Below are positions 13,599 to 50,100 of a stretch of 64,000 nucleotides of DNA, in pieces. The notes below the pieces were generated by a model, which worked only from the letters and a program-made list of their open reading frames with translations, did not search any database and was not told where the DNA came from. Positions within the stretch are counted from its first letter, which is position 1, and each line of letters starts with the position of its first letter. The stretch comes from Candidatus Physcocola equi (GTDB taxonomy: Bacteria; Bacteroidota; Bacteroidia; Bacteroidales; Paludibacteraceae). The stretch is taken from the NCBI GenBank assembly GCA_018064855.1, contig JAGHUM010000043.1:1-64000 (forward strand). The letters are read 5' to 3'. The position numbers and the translations under genes are program-made.

Positions 13599-14477
13599 TC
13601 ATATCAAATAAAGCGTAGAAACCTTCTGGCGAAGGTATTTGTTGACCGCCAAATATGTTGAGAGCTCCGTTATCAGAATGCCAGCCACCAAAATCACCGC
13701 GTAAGTGGTCAGGTAGAGGCGCGTGTTATGTAAATCGAGATAAAGTTCAAGATCCTCGCTCAGATCACCCATGCAGAAGAAGATTAAAGCCAAGACCGTA
13801 ATCGCCAGAAGAGACGACAACACGCCGATGACCAACCCCTGCTTCATGTAGGGCCGACGAATGAAACTACGAGTTGCCCCCACCTGCTTCATCGTGTGGA
13901 TAAGCAGGCGATCGGAGTAAATGAGCAATCGTATCGTATTGTTTATCAATGCAAACGAAATAAACAAAAGCACACCCGCCACAATAAGGAACGCCATCGA
14001 CACATTGCGCACGTTGCGGGCGAAACTATCCACGATATCATGCGGATAATCCACATCCACAATCATCTTGTTGCGCATGAGGTCGTTTTCTATGATTTTC
14101 AGGCTGTCTGACGTGATTTGAGGCGCTCTCAGGCTCACTTCAAAACTGTTTGGCAGCGGATTCTCGTCCAAAAACTCCATCGGGTCATCCCCCAGCATTT
14201 CCGTCAAGTCTTTCACAGCCTGCTCTTTGCTGACGTATTTTACATCCTTGATGTAGGTCTTCTGATAGAGAAAAGCATCCATCTCACCCACCGCTTTCTC
14301 ATCCATTCCATCCTTCAGCGTCAACTTGAAAATAAAATTCTCACGCACATGGTCCGAGAGGTTCTTACTGGTCAGCAAAAACATCGTAGTAATGCCCAGC
14401 AACACCAGCACAAGCGACACACTGACCACAGCGGTCAACTTGGAATTGAACAATTTATATTTCACAGATTGCGCCAT
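13599..14477 (-). CDS. ftsX: Cell division protein FtsX
   Basis: FtsX is the membrane partner of the ABC ATPase FtsE and regulates peptidoglycan hydrolases at division. The 292-aa sequence has an N-terminal membrane helix (TAVVSVSLVLVLLGITTMFL), an extracytoplasmic domain with KYVSKEQAVKDL and LPNSFEVSL, and three C-terminal helices including the conserved LIHTMKQVGATRSFIRRP. It is the first gene of the ftsX-DUF3098-uppP-truB-queA cluster. ftsE is not in this window next to it. Confidence 0.93.
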   Translation of the reverse strand: MAQSVKYKLFNSKLTAVVSVSLVLVLLGITTMFLLTSKNLSDHVRENFIFKLTLKDGMDEKAVGEMDAFLYQKTYIKDVKYVSKEQAVKDLTEMLGDDPMEFLDENPLPNSFEVSLRAPQITSDSLKIIENDLMRNKMIVDVDYPHDIVDSFARNVRNVSMAFLIVAGVLLFISFALINNTIRLLIYSDRLLIHTMKQVGATRSFIRRPYMKQGLVIGVLSSLLAITVLALIFFCMGDLSEDLELYLDLHNTRLYLTTYAVILVAGILITELSTYLAVNKYLRQKVSTLYLI

Positions 14478-22806: not shown

Positions 22807-24447
22807 TTAATTATTTGTTACAGAAGACAGCCATGCTGACAATCTAACATCATAAGCAGCCAATGCATTTAATGAACTTTCTAAAGATTCAACCAACTTT
22901 CTTCTTTCCGCTTTCAACATGCTCATTTCAATGAAATGAGGTGCAAAATTCTTATAATATTCTTCAACTGGGTCATACATTTTATTTAATTCTTCAAATG
23001 AGTTGGTTATAAAATTCTTTAGTTCATTTTTTGCTTGTATAAAATCGTCTTTTGCTTTCTTTTTGCGCCAAAATAAAATTACATCGACCACAACATTTAA
23101 AGCGAGAACTATTTTTGAGAAATTCTTTGCTATATTAACAGCTTGCCATGGCTTAAACTTAAAAGAAGGTAAAACAATATTTCTGATTCCCTTCACCATA
23201 TCTCCTGTCATATTTACACTCTTCAATAGTTTTGTTCCTTCTCCAATAATACTAATAGAAGAATCTAATATACCCAAATTATTTTCATAAGAAACAGCAG
23301 CCAGACTTATAGAAGAGCTATTGTTATTGCCACACTCTGCAAGAAGTGATTCTATCTTTTGAACAAAAATACCACCAGTAACTTTTCCGTTTTCTGTTCC
23401 AATTTCTTCATCTAACATGCTAGAAAACGCCTCCATACCAGTATTATTGATTGTATGTATTAAATTCTGCCGATAAGATAGTAAACTATCAATCAATATT
23501 TTTTTATTATGAAGTAATTGCTTATTCAAATCATTTAATTCAAACTGAATATTCTCATGAGTTTTTTTTGCATTCAACAATGCTTTTTTAACTTGTTCAG
23601 AAGAGGTTCCTATCATTCCTTTAACAAGTTTTGTGATATCTCTGAACGATGCCATTATCGCATTTTTGTTTAACGATGCAATATCACTTGAACGATATGT
23701 ATTTTGAACTGCAGTTCTCAACACATTTATATGAGACCTACGAAGGTATTCATCAGGTTTCCCAAACCAATAAGCCAAACCTTTGCCTTTGGGATCTGCA
23801 GAAATACATATCACATTCATATTAGCTGCCTCAGTTGCGGTAAGACCTATATTTCGAGAAAGACCATCCACTAAAAACTTCTTTTTAATAGAACTTCCTC
23901 TTTGAAAATCGGATTCGTCTAATAGATCAAAACCGGCTTCATCCATCTTGTTGATTACGAATATTGTAGAAGATAGTTTAGACAAATCTTTTAATACCCA
24001 TTTCAACTTTTCAGAATGACTTTCTTTTACTGGGTCAACTGCATCAGTAACATACAAAACAATATGCGCTTCAGATATGTAGCGTTCTGTTATTGCTGAA
24101 TACACAACGTTTTTCCCCATAACCTCTTTTTCCTTACTACCAAAGAGACCTGGAGTGTCCACTATTTCTACCCCTCCGTCTATCTTATAAAACGTCAACT
24201 CATCCGATGACTCATCAAGGTCTATCTTCATATTCTCATGCAATCTTCCTAACATACCAGCAGCTGTTGTTGTTTTACCGTCACAGGTAGTACCAAGGAG
24301 AACTATTCTAAGAGTTTCGGTAGAAAGCAGTTTTTTTACACTCTCAATCTTCAATTTTATTTCACTAAGATCCAAATTATAATCTTTTTCTCCATCAAAA
24401 ATAATGGAAGACAATTCTGTTATTGCTTCATTATAAGATTTGCTCAT
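22807..24447 (-). CDS. Dynamin-like GTPase A (canonical G motifs)
   Basis: The 546-aa protein has a complete GTPase domain: P-loop GTTCDGKTT (52-60), VDTPG (G3) and INKMD (G4). The C-terminal half is helical, with coiled-coil stretches and a hydrophobic paddle-like segment (FSKIVLALNVVVDVILFW) followed by basic residues, as in bacterial dynamin-like proteins such as LeoA. These proteins assemble on and remodel membranes. It is encoded 12 bases after a second, different GTPase (24460-26160); paired dynamins often act together. It belongs to the AT-rich minus-strand run that begins with the JAB/E2/E1 genes. A role in phage defence or membrane repair is inference. Confidence 0.8.
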   Translation of the reverse strand: MSKSYNEAITELSSIIFDGEKDYNLDLSEIKLKIESVKKLLSTETLRIVLLGTTCDGKTTTAAGMLGRLHENMKIDLDESSDELTFYKIDGGVEIVDTPGLFGSKEKEVMGKNVVYSAITERYISEAHIVLYVTDAVDPVKESHSEKLKWVLKDLSKLSSTIFVINKMDEAGFDLLDESDFQRGSSIKKKFLVDGLSRNIGLTATEAANMNVICISADPKGKGLAYWFGKPDEYLRRSHINVLRTAVQNTYRSSDIASLNKNAIMASFRDITKLVKGMIGTSSEQVKKALLNAKKTHENIQFELNDLNKQLLHNKKILIDSLLSYRQNLIHTINNTGMEAFSSMLDEEIGTENGKVTGGIFVQKIESLLAECGNNNSSSISLAAVSYENNLGILDSSISIIGEGTKLLKSVNMTGDMVKGIRNIVLPSFKFKPWQAVNIAKNFSKIVLALNVVVDVILFWRKKKAKDDFIQAKNELKNFITNSFEELNKMYDPVEEYYKNFAPHFIEMSMLKAERRKLVESLESSLNALAAYDVRLSAWLSSVTNN

Positions 24448-24459
24448 AATTCATTAGTA

Positions 24460-26160
24460 TTAGATTTGATACATGCTTTTAACAATTGCTAAAACTTTAT
24501 ACACATTTGTAGCCTCTTTATTTATTTGATTTTCAATATTTTTCTGATATCTATCTAATATTTGGAAAGGACCATTCTGGAGAGAATCCGACAAACTTTC
24601 CTTGGCTTCTGATTTTGCTTTATTAATAGCTTTTCGTACTTCATCTTTTGCCTTAGTTTTACGCTCACTTGAACTGTCTCCAAAAATTAGACCTGCTAAT
24701 CCTCCCACTATTGCTCCAATACCAGTTCCAACTGGGCCAAAAAAACTGCCTATTGCAGCACCCGTGCCTGCAGTTCCTAATGTTGAAACTGATTGCATAA
24801 CAAAATCCCCAAGCCCATAACTTAAGGCATCTTCCGCATTATATGTATTAACATTTGTATCAATTCCATCAGAGGATGCATTTATATAGCCAACATTAAT
24901 AAATCTCATTTCTCTACGAAGAGTCTCCAATCTTTCATGAAGAGAATGCATCTCTGTTCTAAAAATCGAATTGATATCTTCAGTAATCGCTCTTCGACAT
25001 TTCTCTTGATCTGATGATGCGTATTTTTCTAAAATATCTGCATCTACATCACCACAAAGATCATCGTTCAACTCTCCAAAACGATTTTCTATTGATAAAT
25101 TACATTTACTTTCTATCGTTCTTTTCTCATCAGAAATTGCCGACATCATAGATTGCAAGTATCTCCCCATCTCTGACATGGCTGATTCCAAATCGGATGT
25201 AGGTATCTGCCTAATTTTGTCCTTCAATCTTAACTTAAGGCCATATAACTTTTGCTGGTTTGCTTGTTGTATCATTACAGGATATGATTGAGAAGCCCCC
25301 TTAACAAGTTGTTCTATTGCACTAAAACGGCTGAAATTGAAAGTATTTTCTGCACTTCCAAAATAAGAGATCAACTTATTTTGATACATTATAAGATCCT
25401 GTCGTCTAGGTGAAAATGAACCTTTAGCACACATTGCAAGTTGAGCCTGCATTATCACATTCCCTTTATAAACATCTCCCAAAATTCTCTTAAATTCAGC
25501 CTGTATAAGTAAGTCATTCTGTTTTACTAATTCAGTAAGAAGAGTTTCTCTTTCTTCTTCCTCATCATAATTACTCACTCCACCACGTACATTTTGAATT
25601 GAATAAACATATACCCATTGTCCTAAATAATTCTTGATTTTCTGAGCAGTACCAATGTCTGGTTTCTTATTATGTCCCTGCACATAAAAAACAAGATGCG
25701 CTTTATGAAGAGCATCCTTAATAACATCTCTAAACTCATTTTCATTACCTTCTATACCTGGAACATCTATCAAAGTGAATGGAACACCATTCATATTTAG
25801 TTTGTATTCATGGTAATCTCTTGTAAAATCAGACGAGCCATCACCAACAATTAAGCCATCATTACCTGGCATGTAATTTGGATCATAAAGAATACGAAAA
25901 GTTTCTATTATCGTACTCTTCCCTGCATTTGTTTCCCCAAAAAATGCAATCACCAAATTATCCCAAGCCATGCTATCAATCGCAAGTATTTCATTGGTAA
26001 TACTTTCAATTTCTTGTTTGATGACTGGAATGATTCTATCTCTTACTTCAACGCAACTATTATGATGAACAGGTATTGCATCAAGTGCGTTATTACAGTT
26101 TACCAACTGTTTCAAAAAATCTGAATATTGTGCTTTAGCACCCAAATAGTTATTGTTCAT
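24460..26160 (-). CDS. Dynamin-like GTPase B (degenerate G4, Gly-rich membrane segment)
   Basis: The 566-aa protein has P-loop GETNAGKST (75-83) and G3 DVPGIEG, with Val in place of the usual Thr. Where NKxD is expected the sequence reads YSIQNVRGG, so base recognition may be altered. Residues ~450-495 form a glycine-zipper-like hydrophobic segment (GTAGTGAAIGSFFGPVGTGI and GAIVGGLAGLIFG) that probably inserts in membranes. Long helical stretches surround it. It lies 12 bases after the DUF4407 gene and 12 bases before dynamin-like gene A, so all three should be co-transcribed. The pairing recalls LeoB/LeoC-type arrangements. Confidence 0.75.
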   Translation of the reverse strand: MNNNYLGAKAQYSDFLKQLVNCNNALDAIPVHHNSCVEVRDRIIPVIKQEIESITNEILAIDSMAWDNLVIAFFGETNAGKSTIIETFRILYDPNYMPGNDGLIVGDGSSDFTRDYHEYKLNMNGVPFTLIDVPGIEGNENEFRDVIKDALHKAHLVFYVQGHNKKPDIGTAQKIKNYLGQWVYVYSIQNVRGGVSNYDEEEERETLLTELVKQNDLLIQAEFKRILGDVYKGNVIMQAQLAMCAKGSFSPRRQDLIMYQNKLISYFGSAENTFNFSRFSAIEQLVKGASQSYPVMIQQANQQKLYGLKLRLKDKIRQIPTSDLESAMSEMGRYLQSMMSAISDEKRTIESKCNLSIENRFGELNDDLCGDVDADILEKYASSDQEKCRRAITEDINSIFRTEMHSLHERLETLRREMRFINVGYINASSDGIDTNVNTYNAEDALSYGLGDFVMQSVSTLGTAGTGAAIGSFFGPVGTGIGAIVGGLAGLIFGDSSSERKTKAKDEVRKAINKAKSEAKESLSDSLQNGPFQILDRYQKNIENQINKEATNVYKVLAIVKSMYQI

Positions 26161-26172
26161 ATATTTTCAGTT

Positions 26173-27678
26173 TTACTCTGTAGTAGTTTGATTTGTGTCA
26201 ACTTGGTCAGAATGTGTTTGTTCTAGACTTGACTGCTGAGAATCATTCTGGCCAGAACTTGTCTGATCTGTATTTGTTTGCTGTGAATTAATTTGTTCTG
26301 AACTTGAAGACATCGTATTTCTTGATGTTTGATTTGACTCAGACATATTTGTACGTATATAAGCAGAAGGATTTGCTCTAATTTTTTCCAATTCCTCTTC
26401 TCTCCACGCATCTATCGCAACCTGCAAAAGTTCTGCTTGTGCCAAAGCAATTCTGTCAAGGACGTCTTTATTTGCCTTAACTTCAGCCTCTAATCTATTT
26501 CTGTTTTTTTCTGTTGATATTTGGACTTCAGTATTGATATGATCATTTATGTCTGAAATAATTTTATCAGCCTTTATACTTATTTTGTGAACTTCGGATT
26601 GTAACATTTTATCATAAGCCCCAAAAGAAACCATCATTTTAAACAAAGTTGGAACAATTTCAATTATCACAAAAAGAAGCATTACCATTAACCTCGCAAT
26701 GCACAATGTGTGACTTTCTTCCCAACTTGTTCCTATATACAAAGCTTCTAACTGAGCAGCAAAATGATTTAATCCTTGAGTTGTGCTTATTTTTGAATCA
26801 TTTATCTCATCTATTTGTTTTTGAAGATGAGCCAAATCGCTATTGACCTGATCAATATCAGATTGAATACGTTTCCTGTTTTCTGTTATTACACTTTTCA
26901 GTTCTAAAGCTTCTTTGTTTGCTTTACTGGTGAGTTGATCCACCTCCCTTTGCTTAAAAGCTTGTTGTCTTTCCAATTCCTTTGCAGCAGGCCCTCTTCC
27001 AGCCTTATTAGTTACTCCAGTGCCATAAAGTTCCTTATACAACTTATCATTAATGGCATTCAACTCTTCATTTGCCTTTGCCAGTTGTTTTAATGTTTCT
27101 GGTGTTCCTGCTTGTTGGTTAGTCAATTCTTTAGAAAGAGAATCCTTTCGGGAAATTAAAGCAATTTTTTGAATCTCATAATCATTTTTTTGTGCGTCAA
27201 ACTTTCCATCTGCCTTTGCCTTTACAGTTGGAAGATTCTCGCTAATCACATCGTCGAAAATCTTCATTTCTATTGGAGTTGAGATTACCACACCTAAAAA
27301 AATTGCCAGAATAATTCGTGGCAAACCTCCTTTAATTTCTTCCCAACTGATTGTATGTTTTCCATCAGAATACATCGTATTAACCATAAACCTATCAAGG
27401 TTAAAGATTAACGCTCCCCAAAAAATACCGAACGGAATTGAATAATATAATGAATCAAAAATAAAATTCAATGCATATGCACCTGAAATAGATGCCATTA
27501 ATGCCGTGAACAAAATAGTTCCACCAGTTCCTGCATATTTGGCATAATCTGGAGGACACTGGCGAAGTACTTTTTTGTTTACCCCTGCACATGTCCATAG
27601 GAACTCGTTTATTAGTCCCCCCCATTTGATTTCTTTGTCTTCTAAATTTTCTATATTTATAGCGCTCTGTTGTTCCAT
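26173..27678 (-). CDS. DUF4407 membrane protein with Ser/Thr/Gln-rich tail
   Basis: The 501-aa protein has three membrane helices in the first ~140 residues (GTILFTALMASISGAYALNF, SIPFGIFWGALIFNLDRFMV, LPRIILAIFLGVVISTP), a long coiled coil (~150-300), a fourth helix (LMVMLLFVIIEIVPTLF) and another coiled coil. This is the DUF4407 layout, of unknown function. The last ~55 residues are a low-complexity tail in which Ser, Thr, Gln and Asn repeat as NSQQTNTDQTSSGQ. Its start overlaps the end of the Ig-like gene by 22 bases, indicating coupling. It could be the membrane anchor of the system. Confidence 0.8.
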   Translation of the reverse strand: MEQQSAINIENLEDKEIKWGGLINEFLWTCAGVNKKVLRQCPPDYAKYAGTGGTILFTALMASISGAYALNFIFDSLYYSIPFGIFWGALIFNLDRFMVNTMYSDGKHTISWEEIKGGLPRIILAIFLGVVISTPIEMKIFDDVISENLPTVKAKADGKFDAQKNDYEIQKIALISRKDSLSKELTNQQAGTPETLKQLAKANEELNAINDKLYKELYGTGVTNKAGRGPAAKELERQQAFKQREVDQLTSKANKEALELKSVITENRKRIQSDIDQVNSDLAHLQKQIDEINDSKISTTQGLNHFAAQLEALYIGTSWEESHTLCIARLMVMLLFVIIEIVPTLFKMMVSFGAYDKMLQSEVHKISIKADKIISDINDHINTEVQISTEKNRNRLEAEVKANKDVLDRIALAQAELLQVAIDAWREEELEKIRANPSAYIRTNMSESNQTSRNTMSSSSEQINSQQTNTDQTSSGQNDSQQSSLEQTHSDQVDTNQTTTE

Positions 27679-28712
27679 AATGATGAAATTGAATTTGTTA
27701 TTCTTTTTGTCAATGATTTACTAAAATCTTCCATTTTTTGCCACCAATCTTTTCTTGGCGTCAATTCTAACTGATGAAAAGGAATTGATGGAACATATAT
27801 CTCACTTTTTATCTGTCGGAAATCAGGAAATTTTCCAGTATCAACATTAATGTCAACTTGCAATTGTTTCTGTTCGAAATGCATTTCAACATTCAAAGTC
27901 TGATTAATTTGCGGTGTTGGCACCATTATTGATCGAATAAGAGGTAATGGATACATCCTTATTCGTTGATGATACTCTTGAACTCCAAAAACGTCAGTAA
28001 CTTTTAACGTGAATGTTTTTTCCTTATCACAATCAACGATTTTCTCTCCTTGATGTTCCACAATGCCAAAATCCGTCAATTCTACTTCTGATGCATTTTG
28101 AACATTCCAAGAGAGTTTAATAGGGACTCGTGGCAAAGTCACATTTTTATCGACTTCAAATTGCACAACAGAAACCTCAAACACACTGATTGTAACAATG
28201 TGTTTAAAAACTCTTCTGCCATCAAGACCCACGACTTCAAAAATATAGTCTGTCGTATTATCAGGCGACAACTCACGTTCGGATGTCAAATTGATTTCCT
28301 CATTTTCTCCAGAAATCAAATTAGCAGACAGTGCATTCTGAATATTCCACTTTATTTTACACTTCTCTCCTTTTCCTTTTCGAAGTTTATCCGTATTTTG
28401 TGTTATATAGAACGATGGAGTATCTAACACCTTTATTTGCAGAGATGAAGTTTTCTGCGTGCCCGCATTTTCTATACGAAGAATAAAACTCTGAAGCCCT
28501 GCATCTGACAGTTGATAACTATAAAAAGAATTTTCTACAGGAACCTCTTTGTCGTTTATGAATATTTTGGCTGCATCCTGGACTTCCCAACGAAAAATAA
28601 CAGATTCATCTTTATATCTGACAGGATTCCCATCAAAGGTGAAACTGATTATTTGAAGATCAAATGGCACATCTTCAAACATTCCTGTGCGTTCATTATA
28701 TCTTAAAGCCAT
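27657..28712 (-). CDS. Three-repeat Ig-like protein with shared N-terminal tag
   Basis: The ATG at 28712 gives MALRYNERTGMFEDVP, which aligns with the N-termini of two other proteins of this run; an ATG at 28724 would add MSLS. Three beta domains of ~85-95 residues follow, each with a W-x-V/I-Q-[ND]-A core: IFRWEVQDA, IKWNIQNA and LSWNVQNA. They resemble Ig-like domains. There is no signal peptide, so it is probably cytoplasmic. The C-terminal ~90 residues are amphipathic (WWQKMEDFSKSLTKRI). The likely role is a scaffold or adaptor in the complex. The stop overlaps the DUF4407 start. Confidence 0.65.
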   Translation of the reverse strand: MALRYNERTGMFEDVPFDLQIISFTFDGNPVRYKDESVIFRWEVQDAAKIFINDKEVPVENSFYSYQLSDAGLQSFILRIENAGTQKTSSLQIKVLDTPSFYITQNTDKLRKGKGEKCKIKWNIQNALSANLISGENEEINLTSERELSPDNTTDYIFEVVGLDGRRVFKHIVTISVFEVSVVQFEVDKNVTLPRVPIKLSWNVQNASEVELTDFGIVEHQGEKIVDCDKEKTFTLKVTDVFGVQEYHQRIRMYPLPLIRSIMVPTPQINQTLNVEMHFEQKQLQVDINVDTGKFPDFRQIKSEIYVPSIPFHQLELTPRKDWWQKMEDFSKSLTKRITNSISSLWNNRAL

Positions 28713-28755: not shown

Positions 28756-29220
28756 TCAGATATCACCCATCATATTATTTATGCGCTTATTTCTATATAA
28801 ATCAGAAGTTCCTTCGTAAATTAACCGAATATCACTTTCATAATAATAAATAAATATTGAACCATTGGATAAGAAGAAAGAAGCATGTGAACTTGTTTTA
28901 TCCTCTCTTATTTCTGGTGTTTTGCAATATTTCTTACACAAAGCAGAATACAAGTCTTCAAATAATTCTGTATTTGCTGGTTTTATATTGATCCTGATGC
29001 GTCGAACATCTCCATCTCTTTCTTCCAAACTAATTCTCGCATTAGGGATTCCGGCAAATGTACCTATTAAATCCCCCGTATTCTTTTTTACATACCCCCT
29101 TTTCAGGAACTGTGATTCGACAAATGCTTTCGAGCCTACCATTTCTACGCCGGCACATACCATGAAAGATTTTTTTGAATCTTCAAATTCTCCCGTTTTT
29201 TTATTAAATTCAAGTGACAT
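28756..29220 (-). CDS. 154-aa hypothetical protein with shared N-terminal tag
   Basis: The protein starts MSLEFNKKTGEFEDSK, the N-terminal motif shared with the Ig-like and 64-aa proteins of the run. The rest looks like a compact alpha/beta fold: VRRIRINIKPANTELFEDLY then ALCKKYCKTPEIRE and SIFIYYYESDIRLIYEG. I do not recognise the family. It lies 9 bases after the ClpB-like gene, so it is co-transcribed with it and might be a cofactor or chaperone adaptor. Confidence 0.65.
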   Translation of the reverse strand: MSLEFNKKTGEFEDSKKSFMVCAGVEMVGSKAFVESQFLKRGYVKKNTGDLIGTFAGIPNARISLEERDGDVRRIRINIKPANTELFEDLYSALCKKYCKTPEIREDKTSSHASFFLSNGSIFIYYYESDIRLIYEGTSDLYRNKRINNMMGDI

Positions 29221-29229
29221 AACTTATTT

Positions 29230-31827
29230 TTAATTTTGAAATATAAATACTCCATCAACACAGTCAACATTTATTGTTTTATCCTTCTCCACCTGGTGCG
29301 TCAGTAATTTTAGAGTCAACCCATTTACAATATTGTCATTAATTGCCCTCTTTACAGGTCTAGCACCCATAGAAGTATCAAAACTCAATTCCGTCAATCT
29401 GTTAATAACATTTTGTGAAAATTCTATCAACAAATTATTCGAAAGAAGATTATCCTTTAAACGATTCACCTGAAGATTTACGATTTTTTTTATATCCTCC
29501 TTTTGAAGCGGTTTAAACATTACAATATCATCTATTCTATTGACAAACTCCGGAGAAATCGAATGCTTCATGAGTGATATAATCTGATTTTTTATCATAT
29601 CCTCCTCCTGAATGTTTCCCTCAATATCAACAGAATCTGAAATGATATCTGATCCAATATTTGAGGTCATTATGATAATTGTATTTTTAAAATTCACCAC
29701 ATGCCCCTGGCCATCGGTCATACGTCCATCATCCAAAACCTGCAATAGTGTCTCAAAAACTTTTTTGTGTGCTTTTTCCACTTCATCAAGCAATATGACA
29801 CTATATGGTTTACGTCTCACCGCCTCTGTCAATTGTCCGCCTTGTTCATATCCAACATAACCTGGAGGTGCACCAAACAAGCGAGAAACAGAATATTCTT
29901 GCTGATACTCACTCATATCAATTCGAATCATCATGTCTCTACTATCAAACAAATACTCCGCAAGAGCTTTGCATAGTTCCGTTTTACCCACACCTGTGGT
30001 ACCCAAGAAAAGAAAAGACCCAATTGGCTTTCTTTGATCACCAAAACCCATTCGGTTTCTACGAATTGATTCAGAAACTACCTTTATCGCGTCATTTTGA
30101 CCTATAACCGAATTATGTAACACATCTTCAATATGCAACAATCGTTCGCTTTCATCCTGTGTCAGATTTGACATTGGTATTCCCGTCCAAGAAGTAACCA
30201 CTTTCATTATGTCTTTTTCATCCAAAGCGGTTTTCAAAAGAGGATTTTCTATGCTGCCGATTTCATCAAAGAGTTCCTCCACCTGCCTTCTTAACGAACT
30301 CTCTCGTCTTTGCAATTCCACCACCTCTCCAATTCTATTCCTTCCATGCAACTCTGCTTCCTCTATATGAATTTGCAATCGTTGTAGTTGTGATGTGAGT
30401 TCTTGATATTCTGTCAACCTTCTACATTCATTCTGCCATTTGGCATTAAGTTCATTCTCTTTTTCCTGTAAATCCGCAATTTCTACAGACAAGCAATCTA
30501 TTTGCTCTAACGATGCCGGACTTTCATCTTGTATCAAAGACTCTCGTTCTATCTCTTTATTCATGATTTGACGCTTTATCATTTCCAAATCATGAGGAGA
30601 TGAGAATCGATCAATACGCATACTTGAAGCAGCTTCATCAAGCAAATCAATTGCCTTATCCGGTAAAAATCTATCCGAAATGTATCTGCTTGACAATTTC
30701 ACAGCAGCAACTATCGCATCATCTAATATCTTAATATGATGATGATTTTCAAAACGAGACTTGATTCCGCGCATTATCGTAATCGCAGAATCTTCATCAG
30801 GTTCATTTATCAATATTTTTTGGAATCGACGTTCAAAAGCTTTATCCTTTTCAATATATTCACGATATTCATCAAGAGTTGTTGCCCCTATAATATTCAA
30901 GCCTCCCCTTGCCAATTCTGGCTTAAGAATATTAGCAGCATCCATTGCACCTCCATTTTTCCCGGCTCCAATGATTAGATGAATTTCATCAATAAACAAA
31001 ACAACATTTGGATTACTTTTTACATCAGTAATAACCTGCTTGAGTCTATGTTCAAATTCACCTTGCATTTGTGCTCCCGCAATTAAAGACGCCAAATCTA
31101 ATGAATAAAGAATTAAGTTCTTCAATTCATCAGGCACATCACCTCTAACTATTCTATGAGCCAATCCTTCAACTACCGCAGTCTTACCTGTTCCAGGTTC
31201 CCCTATCAAGATGGGATTATTTTTAGTTTTTCGAGATAGAATCTGTAAAATACGCCTTATTTCTTCATCTCTGCCTATAGCAGGTTCTATTGTTCTGTCC
31301 TCCGCTAAAACATTTAAGTTTACTCCATACTTTCTAAGATTTGGAAGGTTTTCCTCTTCGAATCGCGACGGTTCAGACGACAAGTCATCATCATGATGAT
31401 ATAAACGTATAGCATGCTCAATTTTTTGAGCAGTGACACCAAACTGTATCATCAAATCCTTCACGGGATTAGAGACACGAAAAAATGCCCAAAAGACAAA
31501 CTCCAAAGCAACAACATTAAATCCTTCATTCTCAGCCAACGTAGTAGCTTCTTCTAAAATTGACTCTAGTGTCGCTGTAAATTCAGGATCTAATACTCGA
31601 TTATGTTCAATTAAACGCAAAGAATCTCCAATAGCTGAAAAAAAAGCATTTTTATCAACTTCCATGGTATCTAACAAAAAAGGAACCATGTCATTACCTT
31701 CTTGAAAAACTGCAACCATCATCACCTGAGGCTCTACGCTTGCATACTGGCATTCTTTTGTTAGAGACACAGCTTTCAATAATGCACTTCGCGATTTATT
31801 TGTAAACTTTGTGAAATCTATTGACAT
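29230..31827 (-). CDS. Divergent ClpB-like AAA+ disaggregase
   Basis: The 865-aa protein has the full ClpB layout: a Clp N-domain (1-~145), NBD1 with GEPGTGKTAVVEG (209-221) and VVLFIDEIH, a coiled-coil middle domain (~410-520), and NBD2 with LGTTGVGKTELCKALAEYL and SVILLDEVEKAHK. NBD2 pore loop GAPPGYVGYEQGG keeps its Tyr, but NBD1 pore loop reads GAQMQGEFE, with Met where ClpB normally has Tyr. No ClpP-binding loop was seen, so it should unfold or disaggregate rather than feed a protease. Its place directly after an E1-like gene suggests it acts on modified proteins. It is clearly not a housekeeping copy given its AT-rich context. Confidence 0.85.
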   Translation of the reverse strand: MSIDFTKFTNKSRSALLKAVSLTKECQYASVEPQVMMVAVFQEGNDMVPFLLDTMEVDKNAFFSAIGDSLRLIEHNRVLDPEFTATLESILEEATTLAENEGFNVVALEFVFWAFFRVSNPVKDLMIQFGVTAQKIEHAIRLYHHDDDLSSEPSRFEEENLPNLRKYGVNLNVLAEDRTIEPAIGRDEEIRRILQILSRKTKNNPILIGEPGTGKTAVVEGLAHRIVRGDVPDELKNLILYSLDLASLIAGAQMQGEFEHRLKQVITDVKSNPNVVLFIDEIHLIIGAGKNGGAMDAANILKPELARGGLNIIGATTLDEYREYIEKDKAFERRFQKILINEPDEDSAITIMRGIKSRFENHHHIKILDDAIVAAVKLSSRYISDRFLPDKAIDLLDEAASSMRIDRFSSPHDLEMIKRQIMNKEIERESLIQDESPASLEQIDCLSVEIADLQEKENELNAKWQNECRRLTEYQELTSQLQRLQIHIEEAELHGRNRIGEVVELQRRESSLRRQVEELFDEIGSIENPLLKTALDEKDIMKVVTSWTGIPMSNLTQDESERLLHIEDVLHNSVIGQNDAIKVVSESIRRNRMGFGDQRKPIGSFLFLGTTGVGKTELCKALAEYLFDSRDMMIRIDMSEYQQEYSVSRLFGAPPGYVGYEQGGQLTEAVRRKPYSVILLDEVEKAHKKVFETLLQVLDDGRMTDGQGHVVNFKNTIIIMTSNIGSDIISDSVDIEGNIQEEDMIKNQIISLMKHSISPEFVNRIDDIVMFKPLQKEDIKKIVNLQVNRLKDNLLSNNLLIEFSQNVINRLTELSFDTSMGARPVKRAINDNIVNGLTLKLLTHQVEKDKTINVDCVDGVFIFQN

Positions 31828-31862: not shown

Positions 31863-33128
31863 TCATTCCTCAACAGACAATCCCGACATGTCTAGATTAA
31901 TCATATCACCATACTTACTTCTTATTGTTCCACCCTCATCAAGCAACACCTCACGATCTGAACATAAACTACAATTATCATTTTTTGGAATATGTGCACC
32001 ATACCACCTCATAATAGTAGGTTTTGAGCCTGCACCAGGCATAGCAGCCCAATTGGCATGTCTTCTTTCCCTACGATTTGCCCACATGTAATAATCATAA
32101 ATCAGTTCATTTTCAAGACATGAAATACCAGATTCCACTCCACGAGATAGTTCCATGAGAGCTAACTTTACCATCATATTACAGATTGGTTCAATATCTG
32201 CTGACAAACCGACCTGGACAAACGCATCTGCATCTCGTTCTGATACATATGCTGCAATTTGACCATTACGACGAGCACTTGCGACATTGGAAACCTCACC
32301 TTCTGACAATCCAAACCACTGATTTCCGATAAGGCAACAATAACAAGGGCCACCAGGTCTATATCTGAACACGTCGCCACCTTCAGCTCTTGTAACAGCC
32401 CTTCCGAACAAACCTACCTTTTTTTGATGTACAAGAGTTGATGAAAGATTGAATCGGCTTTCGTTATTGTCAGTTGCACATATTACAATATCAGCCTTTG
32501 CAACTTCATCTTCCATCAAATCAAGGTGCTCATTTATATTTATGGCATATTTTTTTACACAGGCATACGGATTTTTCCCTTTTATTGATTCTTCAATCAC
32601 ATCTGTTTTGAGACGACCTAAATCTTTGACCGTAGCTGTATGCCTTGCTAAATTATGGAGTTCAACTCTGTCAAAATCAAACAATGAGAACTCTCCAACA
32701 CCTGCTTTAGCTAATTCAATGGCGATTTGGGATCCAAAACTTCCTAGGCCAACAATCATTACCCGTTTCTCTTCTAAAACATTCACCTCCAAGATTCCTT
32801 TGTTTCTTGAATACAATTCTTGCTTTTTAGGAATATAATTGACCTCTACTTCGAAGGATTTGGAATGTACCTTTGCTGTTATTTCGTCATTTTGTTTAGA
32901 CACATACACAACATATAAATACTCCAAACCCTCATTGGCGTCATTATCTTCTTTCAAGAATAAAACATCATTACAAGATCCAAAAGAATGTTTTATTTTG
33001 TCAGTGTGGATATGCACAACATTCTCACCTTCCCACTCATACGCCTTCCCTACAATGGAAAAATCAGAAGAGTTGAAGAAAAACTCCAACTCTTCCTTGC
33101 TCATATAGATTGTTTTTTTCATAATCAT
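31863..33128 (-). CDS. E1-like (ThiF/UBA-family) adenylating enzyme
   Basis: The 421-aa protein has an N-terminal domain of ~115 residues that I do not recognise, then a ThiF/E1 Rossmann domain: VMIVGLGSFGSQIA (127-132 loop), FDFDRVELHNLARH (the DxDxVExxNLxR ATP-binding motif) and VICATDNNESR. A zinc site is formed by CYCC (262-265) and CSLC (386-389), as in MoeB/ThiF-type enzymes. E1 enzymes adenylate the C-terminus of a ubiquitin-like protein and pass it on via a thioester. Its ATG overlaps the stop of the upstream 64-aa gene by four bases; a second ATG at 33122 is possible. E2-like and JAB genes lie just upstream. Confidence 0.88.
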   Translation of the reverse strand: MIMKKTIYMSKEELEFFFNSSDFSIVGKAYEWEGENVVHIHTDKIKHSFGSCNDVLFLKEDNDANEGLEYLYVVYVSKQNDEITAKVHSKSFEVEVNYIPKKQELYSRNKGILEVNVLEEKRVMIVGLGSFGSQIAIELAKAGVGEFSLFDFDRVELHNLARHTATVKDLGRLKTDVIEESIKGKNPYACVKKYAININEHLDLMEDEVAKADIVICATDNNESRFNLSSTLVHQKKVGLFGRAVTRAEGGDVFRYRPGGPCYCCLIGNQWFGLSEGEVSNVASARRNGQIAAYVSERDADAFVQVGLSADIEPICNMMVKLALMELSRGVESGISCLENELIYDYYMWANRRERRHANWAAMPGAGSKPTIMRWYGAHIPKNDNCSLCSDREVLLDEGGTIRSKYGDMINLDMSGLSVEE

Positions 33129-33319
33129 AAAGCAAAACCCTCACTCGTCATATCTGTTACAATCATACCATCACCTTGCGTCGAACCCTGTGCAACAGTC
33201 TCAAACTCCCCAGTTGTCGGATTAAAAACTAATTCACTCATAGTTCCAGTTCCGCTTCCCGTTCCTTGTCCACCTTGGATTCGAACATCTTCTCCAATTT
33301 CATTTAAACCTTTTGCCAT
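33125..33319 (-). CDS. 64-aa Gly-rich protein with shared tag, in the usual ubiquitin-like gene position
   Basis: The product opens MAKGLNEIGEDVRIQGGQGT, continues with a GSGTG linker, then has MSELVFNPTTGEFE, the motif shared with two other proteins of the run, and ends MIVTDMTSEGFAL. An internal ATG before SELVF would give a 38-aa form. It is too short and too Gly/Ser/Thr-rich for a full beta-grasp fold and has no C-terminal GG. Its stop overlaps the E1 start by four bases and it follows the E2-like gene, exactly where a ubiquitin-like modifier is usually encoded. It may be a modifier, precursor peptide or substrate; this is inference. Confidence 0.6.
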   Translation of the reverse strand: MAKGLNEIGEDVRIQGGQGTGSGTGTMSELVFNPTTGEFETVAQGSTQGDGMIVTDMTSEGFAL

Positions 33320-33338: not shown

Positions 33339-33764
33339 TTAACTTTGATGACTTAAATAATAATCCATGTCTTTGCCCGTTTTAAGATGAAGTTCATACA
33401 TATTCAACCACAACGCACATTTTATATATACTTTAAAAAGAGATACCATAGGGGTCCATGAACTTGATCCATAATGGCATATACGTGTATATCCATGTTC
33501 GGTAGGCAACGTATGCATCGCTGCACTTGCATCGTTCATAGATCTACCACTTTTTGTTTGTAACATTTTTGTAACAAACGCATGGGGAAGTTGATTTGGG
33601 AATCCCTTTAAATCTATACGTATGGTATAAACTTTCCCAATATTTGTTTTTACTGGCATCAAAACATAAGGTTCACTGGTACTCATATCCTTAAATACAC
33701 ATTGAACCATAGGCATTTCTTTTTGCAGTACTTGTTTTTCTAAATTCAATCTTTCAGGAGTCAT
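33339..33764 (-). CDS. E2-like (UBC-fold) conjugating protein
   Basis: The 141-aa protein shows the pattern of bacterial E2-like domains. A beta segment YTIRIDLKGFPNQLPHAFV recalls the UBC strand plus the YPxxP turn. It is followed by GYTRICHYGSSSWTP with a candidate catalytic Cys96, and a helical end CALWLNMYELHLKTGKDMD that resembles the W-x-x-x-YE-x-x-L-x-TG ending of CBASS- and Bil-type E2 proteins. It sits between the JAB gene (4-base gap) and the 64-aa gene. It would accept the activated modifier from the E1-like enzyme. Confidence 0.7.
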   Translation of the reverse strand: MTPERLNLEKQVLQKEMPMVQCVFKDMSTSEPYVLMPVKTNIGKVYTIRIDLKGFPNQLPHAFVTKMLQTKSGRSMNDASAAMHTLPTEHGYTRICHYGSSSWTPMVSLFKVYIKCALWLNMYELHLKTGKDMDYYLSHQS

Positions 33765-33768
33765 ACCA

Positions 33769-34812
33769 TCAAATTACATTAATATTTAACATTTTATAAT
33801 AAGTTACAAATGATTCATAAATATTGTCCCCACATTCCCATTTTACATGAGGTTCTATCACGTCACCATTTGATTTTTTAAAGATTGGGGCACTAAGGGG
33901 AAACTTATTCCCAAAATAAATTTCTATGTTATCATTCCCCGATATAACAACCAAATGAACTTTCTTTTCTTCATCCAAAAAAGGTTTAACTTGTGAAGTT
34001 GCGCCTCCTTGGTTTTTCAAAAAATCAATTATATTCTTTAAAACTTGATTGTTATTCTTATTATTCAACCAATACTCTTCATCATAATTTGGAGTAACCA
34101 TTGATGCATTGCCCATTGCCGATAAGATGTAGTTTGGTCCATAACTTGCCTTTGTTGTTCTAGGATGGCAAATCAAACCTCGTAAACTATTATCTATTAA
34201 ATTTCTATATGGACTTTCTATCTCAATAATTCTCCATGGCACATGCTTATATTGAGTGATACTATTAATATTGAATGAAAAAGCATTTAACGTTGAACGA
34301 GCGCTCCTATCACAATTTCCTATACATAAGAGAAAATTTTGGAAATTGTGACGTTGTATTCCATGAATGACAGTTAAAGCATCATGTCCACTTGGTTTAG
34401 CTAAACCTAATTGGTGATGAGAATGCCATTCTCCAATGTATCTAAGTCCATACTTTCGAGAAATTTCATTATAGACTGTCTGTAGATATTCTGTATCTTG
34501 ATTAAAAAACGTAACTTGATGATTTGCACTCTTTCCAGGACCAATTGCATAGCAAACAACAGCCACACCATCCTCTTGAAGGAAACCAAACAACTGACCT
34601 CCAGTTTCAATATTTGGATAGTCTCCTATACACCTACTTATATAATCCATTTCACTGCGATATATCACAGCCAATGGTGCGGTTTTAGATGCCTGTCCAA
34701 TTACAGAAGCCCCCTCTAATAAACCTGATGTTTGATTTTCAATCTTATTTATCTGTTTTTGATCCTTATTCGGTTTAACTTTTAATTTGTTTTTTTTCCC
34801 TTTTCGTCTCAT
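33769..34812 (-). CDS. JAB/JAMM peptidase with UBC/RWD-like C-terminal domain
   Basis: I prefer the ATG at 34812 (MRRKGKKNKLKVKPNKDQK, 347 aa); an ATG at 34914 would add 34 residues that look non-conserved. Residues ~45-175 are a JAB domain with NIETGGQLFG (Glu69), EWHSHH (His130, His132) and PSGHD (Ser141, Asp144), the zinc metallopeptidase site used by deubiquitinases. The spacing between HSH and S is one residue longer than usual. Residues ~280-347 (KVHLVVISGNDNIEIYFGNK then FPLSAPIFKK) look like a second, catalytically dead E2/RWD-type fold. It heads the ten-gene run and would trim or remove the modifier. Confidence 0.8.
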   Translation of the reverse strand: MRRKGKKNKLKVKPNKDQKQINKIENQTSGLLEGASVIGQASKTAPLAVIYRSEMDYISRCIGDYPNIETGGQLFGFLQEDGVAVVCYAIGPGKSANHQVTFFNQDTEYLQTVYNEISRKYGLRYIGEWHSHHQLGLAKPSGHDALTVIHGIQRHNFQNFLLCIGNCDRSARSTLNAFSFNINSITQYKHVPWRIIEIESPYRNLIDNSLRGLICHPRTTKASYGPNYILSAMGNASMVTPNYDEEYWLNNKNNNQVLKNIIDFLKNQGGATSQVKPFLDEEKKVHLVVISGNDNIEIYFGNKFPLSAPIFKKSNGDVIEPHVKWECGDNIYESFVTYYKMLNINVI

Positions 34813-35025
34813 GGCATCATCTGTATTTAAATAAAAATAATAACAAATTTTTTCAATAAATGTATTTAACATTACAACAAGCGATGAACAAAAGGTGTGC
34901 AAAACATTTTTCATTTTAACGACAATATAGATTATTTGTAAATCACCATTTGTAATTGTTTCTCATCTAAACATGAAGTTCCAAAATTTCTATTCACATT
35001 TAGTTGTCAACCTTCCGTCCAGACA

Positions 35026-44199: not shown

Positions 44200-47100
44200 T
44201 TGAAAACTGACTTGAAAAAATATACGACACCAGCCGCCGTGCTTGGTCTGATAGCGCTCTCCGCTACCAGCGCCTTTGCAGTTCCTGGCGATGATCAACC
44301 CGCACAAGCCACCCTGCCAGCGCCAATCGCCACCACAAAGGTGGACAGCAGCGCCACCGACAGTGTGCGCAGCGGCGACCTCATCTATCCCCTCCGCAAG
44401 AGCGAAATTGTCACTTACGAAGACTTGCAGGAAAAATCGGCTGCCGACTTGAAAGATCCTTCCAACGTTCATCACGAAGTGGACTACGACCCGGAAAACG
44501 GCTACTATATCTACCGCACCAAAGTGGGCGATATGGAAGTCAGCACTCCTTTTGTGCTCAACGAAAGCGAATATCAGGAACAAAGCTTGCGTGAAAGCAT
44601 GAACAACTATTGGGATCAGAAAAATGCTGAGAATCAGGATAGACAAAATAGTTACTCTCTTGAGAACCTACATGTTGACATAGGTAACACAGGCGACAAG
44701 ATTTTTGGTCCCGGCGGCGTGCAACTGAAGACACAGGGATCGGTTGACCTCACATTCGGATTGAAACACACCGTGCGCAAAAATCCGACCATTTCAGAGC
44801 GCAACCGTAAATCCACCATTTTCGATTTCGACACAAAAATCCAACTGAATGCTACGGGTAAAGTGGGCGACCGCGTGAAGTTTACCATGAACTACAACAC
44901 CGAAGCCTCTTTTGAAGCCGACCAGCAGTTGATCAACCTCAGCTATGAGGGTAAAGAAGACAACATCGTGAAAAAAGTGGAAGCAGGTAATGTGTCGCTT
45001 CCTCTTTCCACCCAACTCATTCAAGGCGCCTCTTCCCTCTTCGGTATCCGCACCGACTTGCAATATGGCAAGTTGAAAGTCAGCGCCATAGCCGCACAGC
45101 AAGAGAGTGAAAGAAAGACTGTACATACAAAAGGAGGCGGACAGAACACAGAGTTTGAATTCTCCGCTGCCGACTACGAAGCCAACAAGCACTTCTTCCT
45201 CTCACCTTACTTCAAAGAGCATTACGATGAATGGATGAAGGATCTGCCAGTGCTGAAAACCGGCATCGTCATCAACCGCATCGAAGTGTGGGTGACCAAC
45301 AGCTCAACCCAAGCCGACCGTTCCACACGTAACGTGGTGGCTTTGAGATACATTGACTACGATTCGCTGTACTCTCAAAGTCAGCCCAACGAATTGCCTT
45401 CCAACAAATCTGGCCACTACAAAGTTTTCAAGCAAGACCCGAACAACCTGCCTGAAAACTGGTTTATCAACGGCGAAAACTACGAAAAGATAAACAACGC
45501 GCGTATGCTTCGCTCCGACGAGTATGTGCTCAACCCGAACCTGGGTTACATCTCGCTGCGTTCAACACTCAATCCGAGCGACGTCATCGCTGTAGCCTAC
45601 GAATATACGACAGGTGATGGCAAAACCCACTATGTGGGTGAACTCACCACTTCCGTTCAAGGCGACACCATCTCCGACAAGCCATTGGCAGCAAAATTGC
45701 TGAAAGGAACCAACACCAGCCCAAGCCAGGCCGACCTGTGGGACTTGATGATGAAAAACGTGTATAACCTGCAGGCGTACAGCGTTTCTCCAAACAAATT
45801 CAAACTGGAGGTGGAATATTACTATTCAAACGACTCGCTTTCCACCTACATGAAATACCTTCCAGAAGGCGCCATCGCGAAGAAACCACTCATCAAGTTG
45901 ATGGATCTCGACCGACTCAACTCAAAGAGGAAAGCAAGTCCGGACGGATACTACGACTTTGTGGATGGCTATACTGTTGACGCCCGCAACGGACGTGTCA
46001 TATTCCCGACTGTGGAGCCTTTTGGCCGCAGCCTGATTGAGCAGATCAAACGCAGCGGAGGCAGCAACGCACTGGCAGAAAAGTTTGCCTTCACCGAACT
46101 TTACGACAGTCTGCAGGTGGATGCCAAAGAATTTACCGAAAAGAACAAATTCATCATCCGCGGTTCGTACCAGTCGGCATCCGGTTCTAAAATCCGTCTC
46201 AACGCAACCAACGTGCCACGCGGATCTGTCCGTGTGACCGCAGGCGGACGTCTGCTCACCGAAAACGAAGACTATACCGTCAACTACCAACTCGGCGAGG
46301 TGACCATCTTAAACGATGCCATTGCCTCCGGCAACACCCCGATATCGGTATCGCTAGAAGACGAAAGCGCATTCAGCACTCAGCGTAAATCGTTGCTCGG
46401 AACCACTTTGCAATATGGATTCAACGACCACTTCACGCTCGGCGGTACCATCATGCACCTCAACGAGAAACCGTTGACACAAAAAGTAGGTTATGGAGAA
46501 GACCCAATCTCCAACACTATTTGGGGATTGAACGCAGCCTTCACCACACCAAGCCAGTGGCTGACCGACATGATAGACAAGTTGCCACTCATCAACGCGA
46601 CTGCCCCTTCTTCCATTTCCCTCTCCGGCGAATTCGCCCAACTCATTCCTGGCCATGCCGATGGTGTGGATCAAAACGGACAGGGCGTTTCGTATATCGA
46701 CGACTTCGAGGGGACCAAGAGCAGCATCAACATCATGAGTCCATATTCCTGGACCCTTGCCAGCACGCCTAAAATCTCTTCAGGCGGTCAACCGCTCATC
46801 CGCGAAACCGACGCATTCTGGGGAGCCGACCTCAACACTTCAAAAGGTCATTTGGGCTATGGATTGAACCGCTCGCACTTCGCTTGGTTCCGCATCGACC
46901 AGGTGCTCAACAACCCGACATCGGAAACACCACGCCACCTGCGTACTGACAACGACCAGCAGAGCAACCACTTTGTCCGTCTCATCCACGAACAGGAAAT
47001 TTTCCACAACAAAGAGGCATTCTACGGAGAATCAACCATTCTTCCAACCCTCAACCTCTCGTTCTATCCAAAAGAACGCGGTCCTTACTGCTTGGATGTC

Positions 47101-50100
47101 AGTGGTATGCAACCAGACGGAACGCTCGACAACCCAACCCAACGCTGGGGTGGTATCATGCGCAAACTGGAAAACACCGACTTCAAGAAGAGCAATGTGG
47201 AATACATCGAACTTTGGATGATGGACCCATTCGTTTACGATACCGTCAACACCTCATCCGGCCGATTGGTGTTCAACCTCGGTGAAGTCAGCGAAGACGT
47301 ATTGCACGACGGCAAACTCATGTACGAAAACGGTATGCCGATCAATGAGAACGACGAGCATCGTGTTGACAGCACCATCTGGGGACGTGTGCCTCGCACC
47401 AATGCGATTGTTTACGCATTCGACCTGAGCAATCTGGATGCTCAAGACCTCGGTCTCAACGGTCTGTCTTCCGACGCCGAAAAATACACAGGTGCGTATG
47501 GTCGTTACCTCCAAGCCTTGGAAAGCAAACTCAACGCCAGTGCAAAAGCACGTTTCAACGATCAAATCATGTCGCCGCTCAGCGACCCTGCAGGCGACGA
47601 CTTTGTCCACTTCCTCGATGGCAAGTATTCAGACAGACGCGCTTCCATCCTCGACCGTTACAAATATTACAACGGTATGGAAAACAACTCGTCTTCGTCA
47701 TCGGCATCTTACTCAAGCAGCAGCAACACGCCAGACACCGAAGACTTGAATGGAGACAAAACGCTGAACGAAAAAGAGCAATATTATGAATATGTGCTTC
47801 ACATCGACAAAGACATTTTCGCCGACAGCACCCGTTGGAAAGAAAACCGAATTGCCAGCTGCGTAAACACCACCATCAAACTGAAAAACGGTGAGAGAGA
47901 AAACATCCGCTGGTATCAGATTAAAATTCCTATTGCCGAATACGACCGCAAAGAAGGTTCTATCAATGGATTCCAATCTATACGATACATCCGTATGTAT
48001 ATGACCGGTTTTGAAGATGAGACCTTCCTCCGTTTCGGTGCAATGAACCTTGTCCGTACCGACTGGCGTGTTTATTCACAAAACAAAAACTTGTTTGAAG
48101 GTGTTGCCAACGATGGTGTGAACAGCAACGAAGGTGACGGACGCATCGCCATTTCCGCTGTCAACATCGAAAACGACGCCGACAAACTTCCTGTTGCCTA
48201 TACCCTTCCTCCTGGCATCAGCCGTGTTATCGACCCAAGCCAGACCCAGGTACGTCAGGAGAACGAGCAGTCTATGCTCCTCGAAGTAGATAAATTAGGT
48301 CCTAAACAAGCACGTGCGGTTTACAAAAACACCACACTCGACACCCGTCGTTACAAGAGAATGCGTATGTTCGTTCACGCAGAAAACCGACTCGACGCAG
48401 ACCCTGTTTCGGACAACCGCCTCTACCTCTTCTTACGTTTGGGTAACGACCTGACAGAAAACTATTACGAATATCAGGTTCCTTTGGTGATGACAGCCGA
48501 AGGCGCAACCCGACGCGATGATGTATGGCCAGTTGAAAACGAAATCAACTTCCCATTTGAGTTGTTCACCAATCTGAAATTGAAACGCGACAGGCTCAAA
48601 GCATCCGGCCAGGCACACGTCAACGAACGATACACCGAAATGGATGGCAGAAACATCATCTCCGTTGTGGGTATGCCTTCATTTGGAGAAATTGAAAGCA
48701 TGATGATCGGTATCCGAAACGAAGACAACGAGACTCACAGTGCCGACATCTGGGTCAACGAACTCCGCATGGAAGGCTTTGACGAAGACGGAGGATGCGC
48801 AGGACTCGCCAACCTCGGCATCGTATTCTCCGACCTCGGTTCGGTAAGCGTGGGCGGACGAATTGAGCAAGCAGGTTTCGGTTCTATTGAAGACAATGTG
48901 GACGAAAGACTGCAGGAAGACCACTACCGTTACAACTGGGCTGCCAACGTGCAACTGGGCAAACTTTTCCCAGAGAAGGCGAAAGTCAACCTGCCATTTA
49001 CATACACGTTCTCTAAAGACATTGAACGCCCTGAATACGATCCGATGAACACCGACATCAAACTCGATGAAAGTCTCGACAACGCAGGCAGCGAAAGTGA
49101 AAGAAAGAAGATAAAAGAAAACGCCCTCACCACTTCCACATTCCACAGCTATACGCTGAACAATGTGCGCGTGGGCATCACCAGCGAAAAGCCAATGCCT
49201 TATGACCCTGCCAACTTCTCGATGAGCTTGTCGTATGATGAGACAACAGAGAAATCACCGGAAGTGGAATACGACGTCACCCGCAACTATATGGGCTCGC
49301 TGCACTACAACTACACATTGAGTCCTAAACCAGTGGAGCCATTCCGCAAGATGAAGGCATTTAAGTCGAACAACCTTAAACTCATCCGTGAGTTTAACTT
49401 CTACTATTTGCCAAACTCTTTGGCCTTCAGCACCACCATGCGCCGCTACTACAACGAGGTGCAACTGCGTGAACTGACTACCGGATATGAGCGCTCACAA
49501 GACTTCGATTACCTTTCATGGGACAAAGACTTCACCTGGAACAGAACAAGTGATATCAAATGGAACCTCAGCCGATCTCTGAAGCTGAACTTCAACACCA
49601 ACATGAACGCCGAAATCAACGAAGTCATTAAAGTGCGCACCGACAGCAGCTTCCGTTATATCGACGTTCCTGTAAACAAGTCTTACCTGAAAGAAGTCAG
49701 CGACGACTGGTACGAGAAATGGAAAGACGAAGTATGGAGCGAAATCCACCATTTCGGCTCACCTTTGGCCTACAACCAGCGTTTGTCGCTCTCATGGACA
49801 GTGCCTATCAACAAACTGCCATACTTAGACTGGATTTCGTCTAACGCGCAATACACTGCAGACTACAACTGGGACCGTGGCGCCATCAGCCAACTTGGCT
49901 CTCGCCATGCAGATGTGGGCAACATTGCCCAAAGCCGCCGCCAGTGGAATGGAGATGTCCGCTTCAATTTAGAGACGCTCTACAACAAATCAAGCTACTT
50001 GAAAGGAATCAACAAGAAGTTTGTAAAACAACGCAACATTCCTCAAGGAGCCAAGAAGAGCAGAGACGAAAAGCCTAAAGACGGAAAAGAAAACGAGGCA

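Follow-up and report, generated by a model that had tools for sequence, protein, structure and literature searches.

The window, a stretch of 64,000 nucleotides from Candidatus Physcocola equi (contig JAGHUM010000043.1), contains a run of ten closely spaced genes on the minus strand. They encode a JAB peptidase, an E2-like protein, a small protein, an E1-like enzyme, a ClpB-like ATPase, two proteins bearing a common tag, a DUF4407 protein and two Leo-like GTPases (Table 1). The small ORF, whose product is MAKGLNEIGEDVRIQGGQGTGSGTGTMSELVFNPTTGEFETVAQGSTQGDGMIVTDMTSEGFAL, begins 19 nt downstream of the stop codon of E2, and its own stop codon overlaps the ATG of the E1 gene by 4 nt (ATGA). The initial annotation, made from the sequence of the window, placed this ORF where a ubiquitin-like modifier would be expected, and considered it an unusual modifier, a precursor trimmed by the JAB enzyme, or the substrate of conjugation. 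The operon is closed by the DUF4407 gene and an adjacent pair of dynamin-like GTPase genes (LeoBC and LeoA, 22807-26160), which were not seen in the loci of relatives.

Table 1. Genes of the minus-strand run and parts of the small protein (positions in the window)
Feature	Position	Strand	Evidence
JAB (JAMM) peptidase with C-terminal alpha-beta4-alpha domain	33769..34914	minus	E88, H164, H166, S175, D178 invariant (31 sequences); model, matches Rpn11, BRCC36, Cap3
E2-like protein	33339..33764	minus	catalytic Cys96 = codon 33477-33479; PADLOC E2 models; Cys96 and His84 invariant (26 sequences)
Small ORF, proposed peptide modifier (precursor)	33125..33319	minus	64 aa; homologous over the full length in 46/46 loci; under purifying selection
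N-terminal helix (residues 5-16, consensus LNxLAExVRxQ)	33272..33307	minus	conservation; helix 3-15 in L023 fusion model
Internal GG (residues 16-17), unconserved	33269..33274	minus	QGGQG in 5/46
Tag LVFNPTTGEFETV (residues 30-42), predicted beta-hairpin	33194..33232	minus	G37, F39 among most conserved columns; strands 25-30 and 35-40 in fusion model
C-terminal tail GMIVTDMTSEGFA (residues 51-63), proposed activated end	33131..33169	minus	G61, F62, A63 3.2-3.5 bits; next column 1.4
Leu64, proposed JAB-trimmed residue	33128..33130	minus	0-5 unconserved residues beyond motif in 41/41 unfused proteins
E1-like adenylating enzyme	31863..33128	minus	Pfam ThiF 9e-31; adenylation residues invariant; ThiF/MoeB fold, Z 27-28
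ClpB-like AAA+ disaggregase	29230..31827	minus	NCBIfam ClpB 1016 bits, under curated cut-off 1232; ClpB family in 25/46 loci
154-aa protein, N-terminal tag MSLEFNKKTGEFED	28756..29220	minus	
351-aa protein, N-terminal tag MALRYNERTGMFED	27657..28712	minus	Ig-like repeats judged from sequence
DUF4407 membrane protein	26173..27678	minus	Pfam 6e-66; same operon; none seen in relatives
LeoB/LeoC-like GTPase	24460..26160	minus	PADLOC LeoBC 3.5e-88; same operon
LeoA-like dynamin GTPase	22807..24447	minus	NCBIfam NF041922 above its cut-off; PADLOC LeoA 2e-123; same operon

Conservation of the small ORF

A search of 199 related genomes with the E2 protein found clear relatives in two of them (G044 and G146), both with the gene order JAB-E2-small protein-E1. 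With an alignment of E1 sequences as the only seed, 84,980 species genomes were scanned, yielding 45 loci besides that of the window (46 in total). These loci are mainly from gut and rumen Bacteroidales, and also from Kiritimatiellae, Fibrobacter and single metagenome-assembled genomes labelled Desulfovibrionaceae and Clostridium; because most loci come from such assemblies, single contigs may be taxonomically mislabelled. Directly upstream of E1, all 46 loci have a full-length homologue of the small protein, in 41 as a free protein and in five fused to E1 in frame, and the family profile detected a single full-length copy per locus. This indicates that the small ORF is more than a chance reading frame. 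Between the small gene and E1 the median distance is 4 nt, and a 4-nt overlap as in the window occurs in 9 of 37 cases. Silent changes dominate: in most pairs with usable dS the dN/dS ratio was between 0.02 and 0.23 (0.23 for the window and L012), the two highest values being 0.48, from a near-identical pair, and 0.53. The ORF was thus real, as initially called, and the poor conservation that would have spoken against the proposal was not observed.

The genes for JAB, E2, the small protein and E1 are the only ones present in essentially every one of the 46 loci. Two further loci, L069 and L076 (the latter in G860), came from other searches. Within the order, the small-protein profile matched 4 of 393 genomes, one of them probably by chance (in a 729-aa frame). 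The system is rare and patchy, a distribution that would suit a mobile module or one of the defence type. No relatives of E2 or E1 were found on viral contigs. The small protein matched no Pfam, NCBIfam or PADLOC model, and no description of the family was found in the literature searched (coverage without preprints and most subscription journals). In 9 of the 46 loci (L012, L042-L045, L052 and others), radical SAM genes from a single similarity cluster occur no more than 10 kb from the module. In a Fibrobacter assembly (L027, 15299-17305) the module is followed downstream by a gene whose product joins a dynamin-type GTPase to a formylglycine-generating-enzyme-like domain.

Structure of the small protein and the shared tag

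Column information in the alignment of the small proteins defines three conserved blocks, corresponding to the N-terminal helix, the tag and the C-terminus. The tag has the consensus LVFNPxTGEFExV, with G37 at 3.9 bits. At the C-terminus, conservation collapses in the column after A63. In the 41 free proteins the conserved core is followed by no residue (15 proteins) or by one (14), two (5), three (3) or five (4) residues. The core ends with GFA in 22, GYA in 6 and GWA in 2 of them, so that the last core residue is Ala in 30, and it is Phe or Tyr in the remaining 11. The aromatic ending requires three switches on the E1 tree, a quick tree with weak deep branches.

The initial annotation had singled out the internal GG (RIQGGQGTG). 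The QGGQG sequence was found in only 5 of the 46 proteins (the window, L012, L013, L027 and L055); therefore processing or conjugation at this GG is unlikely, and it was rejected as a processing site. What the alignment of homologues showed to be conserved, besides the helix, are the tag and the C-terminal G-F/Y-A, and the latter is the candidate site of processing or conjugation. The placing of the ORF in the position of the modifier is supported by its being a conserved member of the operon directly upstream of E1.

In a model of the L023 fusion protein, for which no more than 5 rows of the alignment covered the small part, this part consisted of a helix (residues 3-15), one hairpin (strands 25-30 and 35-40, pLDDT about 70-77) and a low-confidence tail (pLDDT about 48-61), an arrangement different from the beta-beta-alpha-beta-beta order of the beta-grasp fold. 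In a combined alignment of small protein and E1 the rows of the small protein were misaligned, and this alignment was kept out of folding. The C-terminus, G-F/Y-A, also differs from the GG of beta-grasp modifiers. A search of PDB sequences with the family brought up nothing but designed beta-propellers, which the tag matched weakly and with a score summed over repeats. No gene for a beta-grasp protein recurs in the operons of the 46 loci, in agreement with the original remark that none is visible in the run. The suggested search for an unlinked ubiquitin-like partner did find two proteins of the ThiS/MoaD family in the genome of the window, both encoded away from the operon. However, the same model matched 11 of 14 control genomes, so these proteins are expected for cofactor synthesis. 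The Prok_Ub model had zero matches in this genome but also zero in the controls, so its negative result carries no information.

In five loci (L023, L030, L035, L046 and L049) the small protein is fused in frame to the N-terminus of E1, which corresponds to two changes on the E1 tree (with the same weak deep branches). A distant relative, L069, has a single ORF of 160 aa with two tandem units, each ending with SIVKDGFA and joined by KNEGETAN; this ORF ends with MVK and adjoins two E2 genes. With both units ending in KDGFA, the arrangement resembles polyubiquitin. Ubiquitin itself is made as tandems and fusions, from which it is freed by a deubiquitinase. Bacterial operons with tandem polyUbl genes are also known (PMC1779556). 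The fusions and the tandem copy, like the C-terminal pattern, fit the idea of a JAB-trimmed precursor put forward in the initial annotation. They do not prove cleavage, and an uncleaved docking peptide would fit them as well.

The 154-aa and 351-aa products start with the tag of the small protein as well, and both this sharing of the tag and the Gly/Ser/Thr-rich linker of the small protein were confirmed. In related loci the tag heads membrane proteins that contain a bacterial SH3 domain, one family of which occurs in 17 loci, as well as Ig-like proteins, a UvrD-like helicase and short membrane proteins. Scores between tags averaged 16.7, far above those of shuffled tags, which averaged 10.2 (sd 0.6) with 12.1 as the highest value in 200 shuffles. 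The further idea that, locus by locus, the small protein's tag varies together with those of its operon partners was unsupported (mean percentile 0.55). In the genome of the window, which is 90% complete, the strict tag pattern had three further hits, one of them inside a large protein (44200-51792). None of these read as an N-terminal tag, the open frames at L059 and L064 having no such N-terminus; within this genome the strict tag therefore occurs in the operon alone. Some individual occurrences in relatives may be mentioned. L025 has, between E2 and the full small protein, a second small ORF (3486-3653, 55 aa) that consists of the tag only and ends with FFP. In L012 the stretch EELVYDTDTNDF, close to the end of a 194-aa protein (13655-14239), resembles the tag; this protein matches the ClpB family and apparently comprises its N-terminal domain only. 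In L034 (13947-15128), and also in L033, a protein with a UvrD-like helicase domain starts with the tag variant MPSIYNPTTGTITG; the genes after it encode an unknown protein and a TerB-like protein.

The JAB, E2 and E1 proteins

The active-site residues of all three enzymes are intact (Table 1). The JAB protein was modelled with a mean pLDDT of 86. Its C-terminal domain, predicted as a helix, four strands and a helix, looks like an RWD domain or an inactive E2 rather than a beta-grasp fold. The E2-like protein is matched by a PADLOC E2 model with an E value of about 4e-5, and its profile matched no PDB sequence. The best structural match of E1 had a Z score of 28.2 (rmsd 2.3 over 231 residues), and the matches include Bub E1 structures, Cap2 and MccB. 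Foldseek aligned Cap2 with E1 over 410 columns, a hint that the N-terminal region of E1 may resemble the wing domain of Cap2. The only invariant cysteines of E1 are C328, C331, C450 and C453 (L023 numbering), which look like a zinc site. Because there is no other invariant cysteine, a thioester on E1 itself is doubtful.

Possible function of the small protein

Conservation, gene order, intact active-site residues, C-terminal pattern, fusions and the tandem copy can all be read from the sequences. From these we infer a trimming site, conjugation, and roles for the tag and for ClpB, and propose, with a probability of about 60%, that the small protein is a non-beta-grasp peptide modifier similar in kind to Pup, which is trimmed, activated and conjugated at G-F/Y-A and uses its hairpin tag as an adaptor. 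The modifier would consist of a helix, the hairpin tag and a flexible tail. JAB would cut off whatever follows the ...EGFA end: Leu64 here, elsewhere up to 5 residues, the fused E1 or a second copy. E1 would adenylate the freed C-terminal Ala, Cys96 of E2 would carry the modifier to its target, and JAB could take it off again. The presence of the small protein next to E1 in 46 of 46 loci, although it was absent from the query, speaks for such a modifier, as do the high conservation of G-F/Y-A, the stop of conservation right after it and the 15 of 41 free proteins that end exactly there. Points against it are the Phe or Tyr endings of 11 of the 41 free proteins, the doubt about a thioester on E1 and the low confidence of the tail in the fusion model.

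Since the hairpin tag heads other operon proteins too, it probably works as a shared adaptor, by which marked targets and tagged proteins might be brought to a common receptor or to one another, and the marked proteins might be remodelled by the ClpB-like ATPase. The fuller version, in which a partly unfolded peptide made as a single, tandem or E1-fused precursor marks targets for tag-bearing effectors and the ClpB-like ATPase through the effectors' own adaptor, is more tentative, and we give it clearly less than an even chance.

The main rival is a docking or adaptor peptide that is never conjugated. Its aromatic C-terminal motif would bind E1, E2 or ClpB, and its tag would recruit the tagged proteins, which would be the real targets or modifiers. 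The tolerance of Phe or Tyr at the last position of the motif, the E1 fusions that hold the small protein in cis and the sharing of the tag with other operon proteins would suit such a peptide. We nevertheless regard it as rather unlikely, for in every free copy the motif lies within five residues of the C-terminus, and the loci contain no other conserved protein with an obvious C-terminus for activation by E1. That the small protein is instead the substrate, onto which another protein, perhaps a host carrier of the ThiS/MoaD type, is conjugated, seems improbable: the two ThiS/MoaD proteins would be available, but their genes are unlinked and of a kind found in most control genomes, and the lysines of the small protein are few (one in the window copy) and unconserved, its conserved part being the C-terminus.

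Two other pathways with E1-fold enzymes were weighed. A RiPP-like precursor matured by the ThiF-like enzyme, sometimes with radical SAM enzymes, would agree with MccB, a peptide-adenylating enzyme of the E1 fold, being among the structural matches and with the radical SAM genes near nine loci. The core of a RiPP normally varies, however, while the C-terminus of the small protein belongs to its best-conserved parts; most loci are without radical SAM genes, and E2 and JAB are unexpected in RiPP pathways, all of which makes this explanation very improbable. In some sulfur pathways, carriers are trimmed and activated by pairs of JAMM and E1 enzymes, and the small protein could similarly be trimmed by JAB and given a C-terminal thiocarboxylate by E1. 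Operon rows 4c-4e (PMC1779556) have been given for this point. An E2 with an invariant cysteine accompanies the small protein, however, and no recurring rhodanese or cysteine synthase gene was seen in the neighbourhoods; a sulfur carrier is the least probable of the explanations considered.

For a peptide modifier, the nearest precedent is CBASS, in which Cap2 conjugates a CD-NTase, a protein without the beta-grasp fold, via its C-terminal Gly or Ala (PMC10097602). Type II CBASS and the present loci have in common E1, E2 and JAB with intact active sites, and both Cap2 and Cap3 were among the structural matches. Like the CD-NTase, the proposed modifier lacks a beta-grasp fold, and in 30 of the 41 free copies its core ends in a small residue, Ala. 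The present loci differ from CBASS in that the protein is a peptide of about 60 aa with a hairpin tag, and that E1 and E2 are separate proteins, E1 having no invariant cysteine apart from those of the putative zinc site. In CBASS, conjugation is lost when the C-terminal residue is bulky (PMC10097602), and the Phe or Tyr endings of 11 of the 41 free proteins argue against strictly CBASS-like chemistry. No match to the SMODS model was found in the genome of the window (the model matches 3 of 14 control genomes), and none of the five hits of a CD-NTase motif scan of the 46 loci was convincing. On a Bradyrhizobium plasmid (L007, 10940-17310), related JAB, E2 and E1 genes lie beside genes for CD-NTase-like, dsDNA nuclease-domain and TIR proteins; the CD-NTase-like coding sequence is apparently split over two frames, with FGSTFGA as its last residues.

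Pup of M. tuberculosis is a disordered protein, also of 64 aa, which feeds an AAA+ unfoldase (PMC12288473). The small protein is likewise predicted to be largely disordered, but Pup relies on PafA and Dop and on a Gln/Glu side chain and not on E1, E2 and JAB, and no sequence relation was seen. The operon contains no PafA/Dop ligase or deamidase gene recognizable by Pfam or NCBIfam models, and the small protein ends with GFA, not Gln or Glu. The bacterial Ubl operons (6a-6e, Bil, Bub) also combine E1, E2 and JAB on mobile or patchy loci, and include, besides polyUbl tandems, RWD-like domains (PMC1779556); Bub E1 structures match the present E1. Their described modifiers, however, are beta-grasp proteins (a CD-NTase in CBASS), and no beta-grasp gene recurs here. 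In the FtsH ternary conflict systems the Ubl and the effector share the EAD1 adaptor, and JAB was proposed to release the modifier (PMC7159879). The use of the same adaptor by modifier and effector is similar, but EAD1 is a domain, the modifier a Ubl and an E3 is present, whereas the tag described here is a hairpin of about 13 residues.

A 2025 review names Cap2 as the sole ubiquitin-type transferase known to act on a protein without a beta-grasp fold, and states that noncanonical substrates may have kept others from discovery (PMC12355090). The small-protein family offers a concrete, testable candidate for a second case. If the fuller version of the proposal is true, the small protein would follow CD-NTase as the second modifier without a beta-grasp fold, and would be the first peptide to serve as modifier in an E1/E2/JAB system. 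The family would untie E1/E2/JAB chemistry from the fold of ubiquitin and link two solutions used by bacteria, the disordered tag of the Pup kind and the enzymes of the ubiquitin type.
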